Positions 30,514 through 35,700 of a stretch of DNA of 39,540 bases are shown here, one piece after another (position 1 is the stretch's first letter; each line of letters starts with the position of its first letter). The stretch is from contig JAFYBN010000008.1 in NCBI GenBank assembly GCA_017540175.1, positions 74,030 to 113,569 of the forward strand, read 5' to 3'. The position numbers were made by a program, and so were the translations under genes. The notes under the pieces were generated by a model. That model did not search any database. It saw only the letters and a list, made by a program, of their open reading frames with translations, and was not told where the DNA came from. This DNA comes from Clostridia bacterium. GTDB taxonomy: Bacteria > Bacillota > Clostridia > Oscillospirales > CAG-272.

Positions 30514-33123
30514 TTATTTTCTCTTCGAGATCCAGGCGGAGCCGAGGACGGCGATGAGGGTGATCACGCTGCCGCCGATCATCGAGCCGCAGCCGGATTT
30601 CTTTTCCTCGGCGGGCTTCTCCGCTGCCGGAGTCTCAGCCGCGGGCGCTTCGTCGGCGGGCTTGGTTTCCGGATTTTCAGCCGGGGGCTCTTGTGCCGTC
30701 GGCGTCTCAGCCGGAGTTTCTTCGGCGGGCGGGGCATCCGTCTTGTCGCCGGTCCGTTCGCCGTAGAGCGTCACTTCGGAAAGCTGGAAGCATCCGGAGG
30801 ACGCGCCGTCCGCTTCGAACTTGACGTAGGAAACGCCGTCGGCGCTTCCCTTGCCGTTGAAGTAGGTGAAGTTCAGTTCTTCGAAGAAGGCGTCGCTGCC
30901 GGAGGCGAGCTTCGTCCAGTTCGTGCCGTCCGAGGAGACGGAAACCGTCCAGCCGCTCGGGCTTCTGCCGTTGTAGGAGGCGTTGTCGTTCGCCGTCGCC
31001 ATCGTGAAGCCCGTGACCTTGTAGACGCCGTCAAGGGACGCGACGGATTCGATCGGGAAGCTGCTCGTGCAGAACTTCGTCGAGGTGTCGCCGTCCCAGA
31101 GGTTTTCGGGACCTTCGCCGCCGTTGCCGCTCGTGCCGTCTTCCCATTCATAACCGGTGATCGGCTTCATGCCGGCCGCCGCGGCTGCCGCGTCAAGGGA
31201 ATCGAAGCCCTTCGACGGGGGCGCTTCGAGCGTGAAGGGGAAGTCGAACGTCGTGTCGACGAGCTGGTCGTTCGCGTCGATCGCGTAAACCTTGATCAGG
31301 TGCTCGCCGGGCTTGAGCTTGTCGACCTCTATTTCGATGTTGAAGCCTTCCGCTTCCTCATGGATCGCCGCCTTGACGTCGGGTCTGTCCTGAATGAAGT
31401 CCGCGGATTTCACCGCCGCGCCGCCGTCGATCGTATAGGCAAAGCCCTTGATCGGCGTGGAGATGTGCGCCCAGCCGCGCGTTCCGAGCACTTCGATCGG
31501 ACCCTCGATCGGGTTCTCGGCGAGCCATGCCTGCGCGCCGCCGTCTACCATCGTCTCATAGTCGACGAAAATGGTGTCCCAGGACTTGGCGAGGAGCTCG
31601 GCCGCTTCCACGGCGGGAGCCGCCGGACCGGAGGACGCGCCCGCGGTCCCGACCAGGGTGACCGTCGCACCGTCCGTGTAGCTGCCCGCCCAGATGCCGC
31701 CGCCGAATTCCACGAGGTGACTCTGACCCATACCGTAGTCGCTGGTGGTGTGGACGTTCGCCGCGTAGTTCAGAACGAACTGGCTGCCTTCGGTATACTT
31801 GATGGGATTGTCGGTGCGGTCGAGGAAGGTCCACGGAATACCGAATTCATAGAAGAGATAATTCGTTTCCTCGTCCCTGCGAACGCCGAAGCTGTAGGGG
31901 CACTCATCAAAGTAGAAGTTGTCCGCGCTCGAATCCTTCATGTAGGAGGGGCTTGAAACCTTCCAGCACGGGATATCCTCGTCGGCGAGCGCGATGCCGA
32001 TCTCAAACCGCTGATCCTCCGAGTAGGAGCCGTCCGCGGTGCCGAGGAGCGCGACATAGCCGGCGGGACCGATGCCCATGTCGATCGCCTGTACGTCGAA
32101 AATGGGTTCGTATTCGGGCGTCAGCACCTCGAGGTACAGATAGAACATTTCGTCGTCCCACGTCGTGTAGGCGGAACCCTTGATGTCCTTCTGCTTGTCG
32201 TAATCGGTGCGGAAGCCGTCCGTGGCGTAGAAGTCGTTCAGCTTGGCATAGCCGTCGTCCAGATAGCCGTCCATCGTGATGGGCGTGTCGGTCTTCGGAA
32301 TCTGAAGGCTTCCGTCCGAGCCCTTCGTGACGTTCGCTCTGCCGGCAGGCTTCGCGGGAGCGGCGGGAGCGGCGGAGCCGCCGGGAGCCGCGACGAGGGT
32401 GACGATGCCGCCCATGTCGTAAATATCGTTCATCAGGCCCTGACCGTACTGAAGGGTCTTGTAGCCCGAATCCGCCTGGAACGTGATGATGTAGTTGAAG
32501 AACCACTTGTGACCCTCGGTGAAGGAGACCTCACCGGTGCGGTCGATCTGGTTCCACGGCATCTTCACCTCATAGTAGGTGTACTGGCCGTCGTTGATCA
32601 CCTCGAAATCGAAGGGGCAGGTATCGTAGACCGCGTACGCGCCGGAGTTGTCGCGGTACTGTTCCACGACGGAGCCGGTGTACTTCCATTCCTTCGTCTC
32701 GTCGATGGAGCGGTTGTACGAGCACTGCATGACGTAGAGGTCATTTTCCGGAAGATCGTTCACGGGCAGCGTCGCAAGCAGGGCGAGATACATGGAGGAG
32801 TAGGTCGATCCGGGCGGATCTCCCTCGAGGTTCTGCGGGAAGTAATCCTCCTCGGAGACCTTGAAGAGCGCGTAAAAGTTCTCCGCGTTCCAGGTCCCCC
32901 AAGCTTCACCGCGCCCTTCGTGCAGGGCGTCTTCGTTGTCGTACCACTCGTCCTCGTTCGGCGCGTAGAAGTCGTGGATCTTGACGTAGCAGTCGTCCAG
33001 CTTGCCGTCGATCACCGGCGGGGTGTTCGTGCCCTGCAGCTGAATGTCGTCGTACGCGGAAACAGCGACCGCGAGAAGGGCTGTCATCAGCACGCACAGG
33101 ACGATCAGGCTGAGTTTTTTCAT
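30514..33123 (-). CDS. Surface protein with two CBM9-like modules, a discoidin domain and a C-terminal anchor
   Basis: This 869-residue exported protein starts with a signal peptide (cleavage after AVSA, about residue 23). Two related modules of the CBM9/DOMON type occupy about 33-260 and 280-515, starting PPVIDGKLDDCY and PITMDGYLDDGY and joined by an Ala/Pro linker. A domain of unknown fold spans about 540-640. An F5/8 type C (discoidin/CBM32-like) domain follows at about 651-790. Then come a Pro/Glu/Ala-rich wall-spanning stretch and a C-terminal GCGSMIGGSVITLI helix ending in SKRK, a membrane anchor instead of LPxTG. There is no catalytic domain, so it probably binds glycans at the surface. 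AGGAGGAAACG precedes the start and the promoter is consensus. It lies upstream of the acetylation pair. Confidence 0.85.
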   Translation of the reverse strand: MKKLSLIVLCVLMTALLAVAVSAYDDIQLQGTNTPPVIDGKLDDCYVKIHDFYAPNEDEWYDNEDALHEGRGEAWGTWNAENFYALFKVSEEDYFPQNLEGDPPGSTYSSMYLALLATLPVNDLPENDLYVMQCSYNRSIDETKEWKYTGSVVEQYRDNSGAYAVYDTCPFDFEVINDGQYTYYEVKMPWNQIDRTGEVSFTEGHKWFFNYIITFQADSGYKTLQYGQGLMNDIYDMGGIVTLVAAPGGSAAPAAPAKPAGRANVTKGSDGSLQIPKTDTPITMDGYLDDGYAKLNDFYATDGFRTDYDKQKDIKGSAYTTWDDEMFYLYLEVLTPEYEPIFDVQAIDMGIGPAGYVALLGTADGSYSEDQRFEIGIALADEDIPCWKVSSPSYMKDSSADNFYFDECPYSFGVRRDEETNYLFYEFGIPWTFLDRTDNPIKYTEGSQFVLNYAANVHTTSDYGMGQSHLVEFGGGIWAGSYTDGATVTLVGTAGASSGPAAPAVEAAELLAKSWDTIFVDYETMVDGGAQAWLAENPIEGPIEVLGTRGWAHISTPIKGFAYTIDGGAAVKSADFIQDRPDVKAAIHEEAEGFNIEIEVDKLKPGEHLIKVYAIDANDQLVDTTFDFPFTLEAPPSKGFDSLDAAAAAAGMKPITGYEWEDGTSGNGGEGPENLWDGDTSTKFCTSSFPIESVASLDGVYKVTGFTMATANDNASYNGRSPSGWTVSVSSDGTNWTKLASGSDAFFEELNFTYFNGKGSADGVSYVKFEADGASSGCFQLSEVTLYGERTGDKTDAPPAEETPAETPTAQEPPAENPETKPADEAPAAETPAAEKPAEEKKSGCGSMIGGSVITLIAVLGSAWISKRK

Positions 33124-33167
33124 CGTTTCCTCCTGTTTTCGCATAAACATGCGGATTTACGATTCCC

Positions 33168-33196
33168 ATTATACACAAACGACGGGTTTTTGTCAA
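33168..33196 (-). promoter_or_regulatory. Consensus sigma-A promoter of the surface-protein gene
   Basis: On the minus strand TTGACA (33191-33196) and TATAAT (33168-33173) match consensus exactly with a 17-bp spacer. The transcript begins about 40 nt before the ATG; a small CGCAT-GTTT-ATGCG hairpin lies in the leader. Confidence 0.93.
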
Positions 33197-33491
33197 TATA
33201 TTTTTTGCGGGAAAGGGGGCGGTTTTTGTGCAGTTTATGCAGATCGGTCCTCGCGGGAAAGCTTTCGGCAGCGTTCTGCCCGCAGACGCCCAAGCCCGCG
33301 TCCGACGCCGCGGCAGCATGAACGGCGGATCCCGCTTTCCCGGACGGGTCGGATCCCTTCGCCTTTACGCATGCGGATCGGGCGGTCAAAGCCCGTCCCG
33401 GGCGATCGGTTATCCTCCGTCCATTTCTTTCCGGCCCAACTCTCCCCCGCGCGTTTTTTCTCCCCGCAAAGGCAAAAATGCCGCCGAAACC
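33197..33491. other. Intergenic region with no recognised feature
   Basis: This GC-rich stretch separates two divergent consensus promoters. The open frames across it are Arg/Pro-rich, lack ribosome binding sites and look non-coding. I see no palindrome, tRNA or repeat in it. Confidence 0.5.
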
Positions 33492-33520
33492 TTGACACCG
33501 CGCTTCATTAATGATATAAT
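33492..33520 (+). promoter_or_regulatory. Consensus sigma-A promoter of the MATE-HATPase gene
   Basis: TTGACA (33492-33497) and TATAAT (33515-33520) match consensus with a 17-bp spacer. The start codon is at 33735, so the leader would be about 205 nt, far longer than for the other genes here. Confidence 0.92.
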
Positions 33521-33526
33521 GACAAG

Positions 33527-33734
33527 GAATGCCGCGCGGAAACACGGACGGCCGGAAGCTCCTCTGACCGCGCGTCCCGCCCGCCGCCCTCCCCGGGGCT
33601 CCGGACGGATCGACGGGGTTTGCCCCCGGCTCGTCCGGCCGAGCGCCGGTCGTCTCCGCTTCCGGGCGGTTTTCCCGTCGGCGACGCTCCGCGATGCGGA
33701 GTCATTTTGATCGATCAACGAGTAAGGATACGCC
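33527..33734 (+). other. Long GC-rich leader of the MATE-HATPase mRNA
   Basis: The leader contains several GC-rich inverted repeats, among them CTCCGC-GAT-GCGGAG followed by TCATTTT close to the start codon (about 33687-33707), which resembles an attenuator. TAAGGA is the ribosome binding site. I cannot match it to a known riboswitch class. Confidence 0.4.
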
Positions 33735-35486
33735 ATGATTCGCAAAGTTTTCAGACATACGATGGTAACGCAGATCGTCTCTTCGATGACGGTCATGATT
33801 TGTATGCTGGTCGACAGCATGATGATCGGCCGTTTTCTGGGCGTCGATTCCATGACCGCGTACGGGCTGGCGATGCCGGTGCTTCTGGTGTTCGCCGCCT
33901 TCGGAAGCATGCTCTCCGCCGGCGTGCAGGTGATGTGCGGCAAGGCGATGGGCAGCGGCAGCAAGGACGGCATGGACGCGTGCTACACCGTGTCGGTCGT
34001 TTTGACGATCGCCTTTTCCGGCGTGGGTCTGCTCGCTCTTTTGGTGTTTCTCGGGCCGATCTGCACCATGCTCGGAGCGGGTCCCGCCGAGCCTTCGAAC
34101 GAGATCTTCCGTCTGACGAAGGATTACATCCGCGGTTTCGTCATCGGCGCTCCCGCTTTTCTGTTCGCGCAGATCATGGTTCCCTTTCTCCAGTTCTCCG
34201 GTCAGCAGACGCGGGTGGTCGTTGGAGTCGGCGCGATGACGGTATCGGATATTCTCTTTGACATTCTGAACGTCTTCGTCTTCCGGGGCGGCACCTTCGG
34301 CATGGGCCTCGCCTCTTCGTTGAGCTACTATATCTCGTTCGCTGTCGGTGTGCTGTTTTTCGTGAAGCCGAGCTGCATGTTCCGTCTGCGGTTCCGGCTG
34401 GTCGACAAAAAGACCTGCTCGTCCGTCCTGAAGTACGGCGTCCCCACGGTCATCAATCAGATCTGCATGGTGCTGCTCGTTTTCGTTTTGAACAATATCC
34501 TTCTGGAGGTCGGACAGAGCCGCGCCGTCGCGTCCTATTCGGTCATCAGCACCATCGGCAACATCTGCTACTGCGTCGGCTCCGGCATCGGCTCCGTCGC
34601 GCTGATGCTGGCCTCCCTCTTCTACACCGACGAGGACCGGACCTCGCTTTATGATCTCATCCGCACCATGATGCGCTACACCGTCATTCTGAACCTCGCT
34701 CTGACCGTCGTCGTTCTCTTGGCGGCGCCGATCCTCGTGCCGCTGTTTTTGACCGACGCGAGCGCGAAGAGCATGGCGATCCTCGGGATGCGGCTGTTCT
34801 GCCTCTCGCTTCTTCCCAGCGCGCTCAACGCGGCGTTCAAGAGTTATTTCCAGGGCGTGAACCGCCTCTTCTTCTCCGAGGCGATCTCCGTGATGCAGAA
34901 CTTCGTTTTCACGTCCCTGTTCGCGTTCATCCTCAGCCGCTTCCTCGGGACGACCGGGGTCTGGCTTTGCTTCCTGTGCGGAGAAACCCTGACGTTTCTC
35001 GTCATCTGCGCCGCCGCGTGGATCCGTCATCGCTCGGTCACGCTCGACCCGACCGCCTTTTCCTTCCTCCAAAATGATTTCGGCGTCAAGGAAGGCGACT
35101 ATATCGAAATGTCCGTGCGTTCCGCGGAGGAATCGGTCGCCGCTTCCCGCAAGGCGGAGGCGTTCTGCCTCGAGCACGGGGAATCCGAGCGCAACAGCTC
35201 GATGATTGCGCTCTGCGTCGAGGAAATGACGGAAAACATCGTGCGGCACGGCTTCCCCAAGGACAAGAATGAGAATATGATCGACATCCGTCTGATCTTC
35301 AAAAACGGGCAGAAGGTGATCCGCATCCGGGACAACTGCGTGAGCTTCGATCCGCTGAAATACCTGGAGCTGCACGAAACGGACGACCCGACCAAGCATT
35401 TCGGCATCCGCATGGTGATGAAGATGGTCAAAAACGCCGACTTCGTCTACTCGCTCGGAATGAACAACCTCACGCTTGTTTTGTAA
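33735..35486 (+). CDS. MATE-family transporter fused to a C-terminal RsbW-like HATPase domain
   Basis: This 583-residue protein starts with a 12-helix MATE/MOP-type transporter (about residues 1-440), which normally exports drugs or metabolites using Na+ or H+. The tail, about 455-583, is not part of MATE proteins. It contains ALCVEEMTENIVRHGF (N box, with the Glu and Asn expected to bind Mg-ATP), IRIRDNCVSFDPL (G1-like box) and KHFGIRMVMKMV (G2-like box), ending in NNLTLVL. This resembles HATPase_c_2 domains of RsbW/SpoIIAB anti-sigma kinases. The reading frame is continuous, with no internal stop or restart signal. I infer a cytosolic ATP-binding regulatory or kinase domain attached to a transporter. 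No sigma factor or anti-anti-sigma gene is adjacent. TAAGGA precedes the start. A repeat arm follows the stop by 5 nt. Confidence 0.9.
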   Translation: MIRKVFRHTMVTQIVSSMTVMICMLVDSMMIGRFLGVDSMTAYGLAMPVLLVFAAFGSMLSAGVQVMCGKAMGSGSKDGMDACYTVSVVLTIAFSGVGLLALLVFLGPICTMLGAGPAEPSNEIFRLTKDYIRGFVIGAPAFLFAQIMVPFLQFSGQQTRVVVGVGAMTVSDILFDILNVFVFRGGTFGMGLASSLSYYISFAVGVLFFVKPSCMFRLRFRLVDKKTCSSVLKYGVPTVINQICMVLLVFVLNNILLEVGQSRAVASYSVISTIGNICYCVGSGIGSVALMLASLFYTDEDRTSLYDLIRTMMRYTVILNLALTVVVLLAAPILVPLFLTDASAKSMAILGMRLFCLSLLPSALNAAFKSYFQGVNRLFFSEAISVMQNFVFTSLFAFILSRFLGTTGVWLCFLCGETLTFLVICAAAWIRHRSVTLDPTAFSFLQNDFGVKEGDYIEMSVRSAEESVAASRKAEAFCLEHGESERNSSMIALCVEEMTENIVRHGFPKDKNENMIDIRLIFKNGQKVIRIRDNCVSFDPLKYLELHETDDPTKHFGIRMVMKMVKNADFVYSLGMNNLTLVL

Positions 35487-35490
35487 TTAA

Positions 35491-35572
35491 GGGGAACGCG
35501 GCTTTCCCCAAAATGAAAGCTGACGATGCTACGCATCGTGGGCAAAGAACTTTTATACGACTGGTGCAGCGT
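35491..35572. repeat. Partial copy of the palindromic repeat element (single arm)
   Basis: GGGGAACGCGGCTTTCCCC begins 5 nt after the MATE-HATPase stop. About 70 bp match the reverse complement of the right arm at 27311-27380, including ACGATGC-TAC-GCATCGT and GGGCAAAGAACTTTT. The likeness to the left arm continues through ATACGACTG to CAGCG at about 35572. The second arm and the long central hairpin are missing, so this is a half or decayed element. Confidence 0.85.
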
Positions 35573-35700
35573 TCTCTCAACGTGCAGATCGGGGTAATGT
35601 GATGCGCACGGACGAACCATTTTCACATTCTTCGTGATGACGTTGTCGTTTTGACGTGAGAAGAGTATGAGAACCGCTTCCCTCTCCAACCGAATAAAGG
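35573..35700. other. Intergenic tail without a recognised feature
   Basis: This is the remainder of the 310-bp gap between the MATE-HATPase and XRE genes, apart from the repeat arm and the terminator. I find no supported gene and no sign of the missing repeat arm. Confidence 0.45.

Follow-up and report, generated by a model that had tools for sequence, protein, structure and literature searches.

What does a domain of the RsbW/SpoIIAB family of anti-sigma factors do when it is joined to a membrane transporter? The question is raised by a gene in a stretch of 39,540 nucleotides from a Clostridia bacterium (assembly GCA_017540175.1, contig JAFYBN010000008.1), a stretch referred to here as the window. 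The gene is a single unbroken open reading frame (ORF) of 583 amino acids (aa), which begins with ATG and occupies positions 33735..35486 of the + strand; its product matches both MatE and HATPase_c_2 in Pfam. Partner switches are known as regulators of sigma factors, although a few act on something else. On balance, the protein is probably a MATE transporter with an attached switch-receiver derived from an RsbW/SpoIIAB-type domain, such that the pump, and not a sigma factor, is the output of a partner switch. The features of partner switching are found across the family of such fusions (partner genes at 43/70 loci, a phospho-acceptor serine in 57/58 STAS domains), but not beside the window gene itself.

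The fusion protein and its two domains

A first-pass annotation of this sequence had described a frame running without interruption from a MATE transporter into a tail with N-box, G1-like and G2-like blocks, and all of these elements were recovered. The transporter part (residues 1-437, 33735..35045, + strand) contains two MatE stretches (PF01554, E=4.7e-24, 85.3 bits, above the cut-off), and in a profile search against solved MATE/MOP proteins its best match was BH2163, at positions 3-432. The score with the NCBIfam model matE TIGR00797, 133.9 bits, is under the cut-off of 147.4. The hydropathy of the fusion fits a membrane part of many helices that gives way to a soluble tail near residue 428. 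Residues D27 and D176 of the MATE part are invariant in 20/20 close relatives; acidic residues of this type are presumably tied to cation-coupled transport in MATE proteins.

The tail (residues 441-583, 35055..35483, + strand) has its HATPase_c_2 match at residues 465-580. With PF13581 the full protein scored 38.4 bits (E=1.5e-9), passing the gathering score of 27.4, and the tail by itself scored 42.7 bits (E=7e-11), which bears out the earlier assignment to the RsbW-like family. Matches to the NCBIfam models for RsbW were weak, the best being the equivalog NF003144 with 17.7 bits against a cut-off of 145. The solved structures nearest to the tail in a one-sequence search were the anti-sigma F factor SpoIIAB and RsbW (E=0.05-0.2), and a 20-sequence profile of the tail was no better (E=0.25-0.67); similarity to solved members is thus weak. 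In profile-profile comparison with hhalign, the window-type tail matched six other HATPases from fusion loci with a probability of 94.8%.

A frame or assembly artefact was rejected, since 19 full-length relatives from other records continue in frame into the same tail; the fusion is therefore not an accident of assembly. Existence of the tail as a separate protein was rejected as well, as a split frame was seen in only one relative (locus L074).

Partner-switch genes around the fusion loci

The surroundings of 70 fused loci were searched for genes encoding PP2C phosphatases, STAS proteins, STAS-phosphotransferases or other HATPases. At least one such partner gene was located within 6 kb at 43/70 fusion loci, as against 2/33 loci of MATE transporters without a tail. 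In the first set of 43 fusion loci, with a partner threshold of 25 bits, a partner was found at 27/43 (2/33 for the tail-less loci; Fisher p 2e-7) and a PP2C gene at 23/43 (0/33; Fisher p 8e-8), in tests that ignore the relatedness of the loci. A STAS gene was near 1/33 tail-less MATE loci. The second set was obtained later with a broader profile and scored with a partner threshold of 20 bits; it consists of 27 loci, namely 32 matches with E up to 3.2e-22 minus 4 already in the set and 1 in a 364-aa frame. Here a partner was present at 16/27 loci (PP2C at 13, STAS at 11, another HATPase at 11). Another HATPase, either as a protein of its own or as a domain of a PP2C or STAS-phosphotransferase, was found at 20/43 and 11/27 fusion loci in the two sets.

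The composition of these samples bears on how the counts are read. The set of 43 omits L060 (on the contig of L016), L025 (a fragment) and the split L074; it includes the near-copies L014/L015, L018/L021, L107/L108 and L033/L072/L073, two L075 genes that share counted partners, the gene of L068, which is cut by a contig end, and several loci with short flanks. The 33 controls are 31/37 control stretches together with L032 and L077; L167 was dropped as itself a fusion, and L157, L168, L172, L175 and L177, in which no partner was matched either, were dropped for want of a MATE-profile match. L032 and L077 are not neutral controls, having been fetched for their HATPase matches, and the controls stem from five genomes, with L077 from a sixth. 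The two control positives are L032, with a STAS gene, a HATPase and a sigma gene in a spoIIA-like arrangement, and L181, with a HATPase; a STAS-HATPase pair at L077 is 6.2 kb off, barely beyond the limit.

Partner frames share the strand of the fusion in 62/65 cases in the first set and 33/35 in the second, tallies in which a few frames are counted twice. The order of the genes varies. At L009, L011, L012, L014 and L015 it is PP2C-HATPase, STAS, MATE-HATPase, STAS-phosphotransferase; at L010 it is STAS, PP2C, STAS-phosphotransferase-HATPase, MATE-HATPase; at L259, L260 and L263 it is MATE-HATPase, PP2C, HATPase. These varied orders argue for selection to remain together rather than for one inherited block. 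The independence of the locus counts rests on them also, because the fusion seems to be of one origin (see below).

Examples of the neighboring phosphatases were identified as SpoIIE-type PP2C proteins by Pfam and NCBIfam, and by eye their N-terminal parts resemble membrane sensors. The neighboring STAS proteins match the anti-sigma factor antagonist model TIGR00377 above its cut-off; the STAS domains fused to an APH-type phosphotransferase are related to TIGR02172 but under its cut-off. The neighboring HATPase_c_2 proteins or domains score strongly (76.6, 84.4 and 89.1 bits). By pattern, the phospho-acceptor serine is kept in 57/58 STAS domains of the fetched loci, and the lone exception is a short fragment whose frame overlaps another STAS frame in L010. 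The association extends to whole genomes: among 98 relatives of the window genome, an RsbU-like PP2C (E<1e-40) was found in 14/14 fusion genomes versus 16/84 others, and a STAS-phosphotransferase (>300 bits) in 12/14 versus 10/84. The idea that the tail has a STAS partner, put forward at first reading, is thereby strengthened, as STAS, STAS-phosphotransferase and SpoIIE-type phosphatase genes are frequent in the vicinity of fused MATEs and scarce around those without a tail.

The accompanying idea of a link to sigma factors was not supported. With the sigma-70 region 2 profile, which omits 2/30 pieces that contained a stop, a sigma gene was found within 6 kb at 2/70 fusion loci, at 1.3 kb in L020 and, as a weak match, at 4.1 kb in L108. 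Both are on the opposite strand, and the 27 fusion loci of the second set gave no match within this distance. On these grounds a sigma factor was rejected as the output tied to the fusion.

Several of the clusters contain further genes. Three-domain STAS-phosphotransferase-HATPase proteins are encoded at L016 (4395-5987), L025 (4370-5953), L013 (4370-6004) and L007 (3617-5227). Judged from the sequence by eye, other cluster genes presumably encode SpoT-like HD proteins (L011 7774-8337, L012 7768-8331, L015 7769-8332), PHP phosphoesterases (L007 7029-7889, L010 7287-8156, L035 7770-8738) and GNAT-like proteins (L033 8226-8819, L073 7681-8271). L112, L113 and L115, from other genomes of the phylum, have clusters of PP2C, HATPase and STAS genes with no MATE match in the fetched stretch. 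A known defence system was rejected as an identity for these genes, as PADLOC gave no match for the window protein, one STAS-phosphotransferase or one PP2C-HATPase.

Residues of the ATP site

The N-box of the window tail, EEMTEN (CVEEMTENIVRHGF, 35220..35237, + strand), includes E497 and N501. The G1 box, D533-N-C535 (IRIRDNCVSFDP, 35331..35339, + strand), contains D533 but has Cys in place of the usual Gly, and the G2 box, FGIRMVMKM, with its glycine G557 (35403..35405, + strand), reads FGIR in place of a GGLG-type motif. Compared with the features of RsbW/SpoIIAB, the window tail therefore has the N-box Glu and Asn and the G1 Asp, and is without the G1 Gly and the GGLG-type G2.

In the close set of 20 sequences (the window and 19 relatives), E497 and D533 are each found in 20/20 and N501 in 19/20, with Asp replacing it in L024. 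When 71 fused tails were aligned, Glu was present in 71/71, Asn in 50/71 and Asp in 59/71, and Asn and/or Asp was gone in 21/71. All three residues are thus retained in nearly all close homologs, and it is Asn and/or Asp that some of the more distant ones have lost. Among the 39 other HATPases from the fetched loci, each of the three is intact in 39/39. The third position of G1 is Cys in 39/71 and Gly in 23/71 fused tails, as against Gly in 38/39 other HATPases, and the GG[LIVM]G motif is found in 39/39 of the latter versus 1/71 of the former. The 39 were drawn from all fetched loci, some of them fusion-free, and were chosen at >60 bits with a canonical-HATPase profile; their motif score is partly a product of selection, because that profile was built from canonical members.

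Distant fused tails score under the PF13581 cut-off (L107, 21.5 bits; L110, 22.4 bits), and the L033 tail gave no HATPase match in Pfam at E up to 0.01. Tails without both Asn and Asp still match other HATPases in hhalign, with a probability of 97.5%. ATP binding or hydrolysis is unlikely as a shared function of the whole family, because Asn and/or Asp is lost in so many tails and the GGLG-type motif from all but one, while the Glu is kept throughout. The tail of the window clade, in which Glu, Asn and Asp are retained, might bind nucleotide. The proposal of ATP gating or kinase activity is accordingly weakened for the family by the window's own G1 Cys and by the wider erosion of the motifs, and may still apply to the window clade.

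The one tail with a GGLG-type motif, at L109 (6708-8432), has GGLG, E, N and D beside PP2C and STAS genes and possibly represents the ancestral state. No other HATPase was matched at this locus, over flanks of 6.7 kb on the upstream side and 2.8 kb on the downstream side. Ratios of nonsynonymous to synonymous change (dN/dS) were computed for four close pairs, from which little information was gained. For L018/L021 the values were 0.032/0.42 in the MATE part and 0.055/0.92 in the tail; L014/L015 had few changes, the tail of L011/L015 gave 0.18/0.60, and L011/L007 was saturated.

Distribution and origin of the fusion

A scan of genome contigs found 20 loci, 19 of them with a full-length fusion at 52-66% identity to the window protein; all 20 are from metagenome-assembled genomes, many from ruminants. 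Compared with the window protein, the tails are 46-66% identical and the MATE parts 54-68%, so that the tail is conserved almost as well as the transporter. Among the 98 relatives of the window genome, a tail profile matched in 15, and examination by frame placed the fusion in 14, including one in which it is split and one in which it is cut by a contig end. The fusion is present in at least 7/398 genomes sampled from the phylum, which the named relatives indicate to be Bacillota. A broader tail profile (A4) matched in 127/391 genomes of the class, with the fusion checked in 25 (those with E up to 3.2e-22 plus the split one); many of the weaker matches are other HATPases by frame length.

In a maximum-likelihood tree of the MATE cores, a branch with support 100/100 divided the 33 tail-less MATEs from 42 fusions plus the split L074, and in a second, quicker tree 62 fusions were separated from 33 tail-less MATEs by one change (SH-aLRT 98), the tail-less set of both trees being from few genomes. 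Within the fusion branch there was no tail-less member among the sampled MATEs except the split gene of L074. The MATE-HATPase fusion thus seems to have had one origin. In the 98 relatives, 9/10 best matches to the window transporter part (at least 149 bits, the window included) belong to frames 585-740 aa long. The remaining one, from G006 of the same genus, is a 392-aa frame in which only residues 1-362 are matched. This gene (L277, G006:C257, 34-1212) has a short tandem repeat at its end and no tail, and looks decayed. From 113 bits downward, matches to the transporter part are to tailed and tail-less MATEs intermixed.

The presence of the same fusion on plasmids was rejected: of 25 plasmid records that match, none spans 80% of the query, and no match among the 20 listed extends beyond residue 435. 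JAFWVC, a metagenome-assembled genome, contains both the L010 and the L024 fusion, and in the L024 copy Asp replaces the N-box Asn and Gly replaces the G1 Cys.

The window gene and its genome

No partner gene was matched near the window copy over the 33.7 kb before it or the 4.1 kb after it, where the contig ends, and none was matched in L038, which precedes it. The likely genes flanking the window fusion on both sides are on the opposite strand. The genome does contain partner genes elsewhere: STAS-phosphotransferase genes on contigs C108 and C25, a STAS gene on C16 and an RsbU-like PP2C gene on C52. If these serve the window gene, it would act in trans. Two other genomes, G062 and G074, have window-type copies without nearby partners, and in each of them a different contig carries STAS along with STAS-phosphotransferase genes. 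A second, distant fusion is present in the window genome on contig C114, with 25% identity in both the MATE part and the tail; it belongs to a compact cluster of STAS, MATE-HATPase, PP2C and a separate 133-aa HATPase, and its tail gave no Pfam HATPase match at E up to 0.01. The STAS-phosphotransferase gene on C108 has beside it a gene for what appears by eye to be a PHP phosphoesterase.

A sigma-A type promoter-like site, TTGACA-17-TATAAT with a TG extension, is found at 33492..33520 (+ strand), 214 bases upstream of the ATG; it agrees with the consensus at 12/12 positions and is predicted from that match. The interval from this site to the start codon would form a leader of about 210 bases (33521-33734), which includes a hairpin at 33686-33702. 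A known riboswitch ahead of the gene was rejected, as Rfam gave no match in the window at the gathering threshold and none in 33480-33760 up to E=1. A second perfect TTGACA-17-TATAAT site, at 33168-33196 on the - strand, faces an 878-aa ORF (30514-33150, - strand). Directly after the fusion gene is a dispersed intergenic repeat of about 110-150 bases (about 35490-35645; core 35540-35569, - strand). When up to 3 mismatches are allowed, its 30-base core occurs 13 times in the genome, versus 0 in a reversed control, and 6 of 10 aligned copies have a CGATGCG-AGCATCG hairpin.

A proposed mechanism and its alternatives

The clusters of partner-switch genes around the relatives of the window gene suggest that the switch controls the pump directly, and not a gene regulator. 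In the mechanism we propose, a SpoIIE/RsbU-type sensor phosphatase would remove phosphate from a small STAS protein, or from the STAS domain of a STAS-phosphotransferase, and a separate canonical RsbW-like kinase would phosphorylate the same STAS. The unphosphorylated STAS would dock on the transporter tail around the invariant glutamate, and docking would alter the activity or stability of the transporter. An interaction of this sort appears in a computed model presented in a part of PMC10120452, in which the STAS phospho-serine of SypA lies against, and is hydrogen-bonded to, Glu48 of SypE. We take Glu48 to be the N-box Glu that is kept in all 71 tails. A kinase role may have come first for the fused domain, with the task later moved to a separate protein; this is suggested by the single locus L109, where no HATPase other than the motif-bearing tail was matched beside PP2C and STAS. 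More tentatively, the same account may extend to a phylum-wide family in which an ex-kinase, often a pseudokinase, has become the STAS-receiver of a MATE pump, with the phosphatase toggling transport without transcription.

Some observations weigh against the receiver mechanism. No partner lies within 6 kb at 27/70 fusion loci, the window among them, although some flanks are short, and 2/14 fusion genomes are without a STAS-phosphotransferase. The window clade retains E, N and D, and there the tail may yet function as a kinase. The Arg at chain residue 20 of SpoIIAB, which we take to contact STAS, aligns with Ala470 of the fusion, and the alignment thus gives no backing for a canonical docking surface. 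For SypE, Arg19 and Arg22 are named in the same part of PMC10120452.

The retained residues are also the basis for reversing the direction of the signal. The MATE part would then sense its substrate as a transceptor, and the tail, as an active kinase, would phosphorylate STAS, so that the pump is the input of the switch and reports to it. The L109 tail, with its full set of motifs and adjacent PP2C and STAS, fits such an arrangement, as does the window clade. We nevertheless consider it unlikely, since so many clusters already contain another HATPase and the ATP site of the tail is eroded through most of the family. A tail that binds ATP to gate or power transport by itself, independently of any STAS partner, is less likely still and in our judgment quite improbable. 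It would account for the conservation of E497, N501 and D533 among the window's close relatives, and at the position of the G1 glycine side chains as small as those of Cys or Ala may be acceptable; yet related tails persist despite the loss of Asn and/or Asp, and the enrichment of STAS, PP2C and HATPase genes near tailed as compared with tail-less MATEs would be left unexplained.

Alternatively, the enrichment could be genuine while the tail is a mere membrane anchor or scaffold for the kinase, STAS or phosphatase, the true output being some enzyme encoded in the cluster, such as the STAS-phosphotransferase. Such enzymes do include the HD, PHP and GNAT proteins noted above, and STAS-phosphotransferase occurs without the fusion in 10/84 other relatives. 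A complete and conserved MATE transporter with invariant acidic residues is a costly anchor, however, and we rate this explanation as improbable, between the two preceding ones. Least probable of all is a hidden sigma/anti-sigma pathway in which the tail sequesters, in the manner of RsbW, a sigma factor encoded elsewhere. The domain family is one of anti-sigma factors and the window genome has 30 sigma-70 region 2 matches above the cut-off, none of them on the window contig; against this stands the near absence of sigma genes, and their opposite orientation, around the fusion loci. We therefore favor the pump as a probable switch-controlled output. If this is correct, a transporter bearing the kinase-like half would be a new class of output for partner switches and would offer a way of controlling a pump rapidly and post-translationally. 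The family also forms a natural series, from the intact kinase motifs of L109 to eroded tails that often lie beside an intact HATPase, in which a change from kinase to receiver is directly testable.

Comparison with known systems

The component families are already known, as are sigma-independent outputs of STAS/kinase pairs and fusions of STAS domains to transporters. No title or abstract on a MATE-HATPase fusion was found, in a search whose loose terms make this weak evidence of absence; domain databases may list the architecture. The membrane part (residues 1-437) matches the MATE transporters (PF01554; solved members BH2163 and PF0708) by profile, but the fusions are a distinct branch of these with a tail of about 140 residues.

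The tail shares its domain family with RsbW and SpoIIAB, and in many relatives a phosphatase, a serine-bearing STAS and another HATPase are nearby, as in the RsbU-RsbV-RsbW partner-switch mechanism of Bacillus subtilis outlined in a section of PMC8256260. It differs in that the domain is joined to a transporter, the ATP motifs are partly eroded, and sigma genes are rarely close at hand. SypA and SypE of Vibrio fischeri are likewise a STAS protein and a serine kinase in which, according to the portion of PMC10120452 used here, it is STAS that acts downstream, and not an anti-sigma factor; there is no transporter fusion in that system, and SypE is a kinase-REC-phosphatase protein. In the CapK/CapS pair of bacterial immune operons, a GHKL kinase phosphorylates a STAS domain with a non-sigma output, as stated in part of PMC13373217, but that output is a DNA-binding repressor. 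The SulP/SLC26 proteins, as presented in PMC8256260 in the section cited above, also join a transporter to a domain of the partner-switch kind, in their case STAS. There the STAS half of the switch is fused to the transporter, whereas in the MATE-HATPase proteins it is the kinase-like half.

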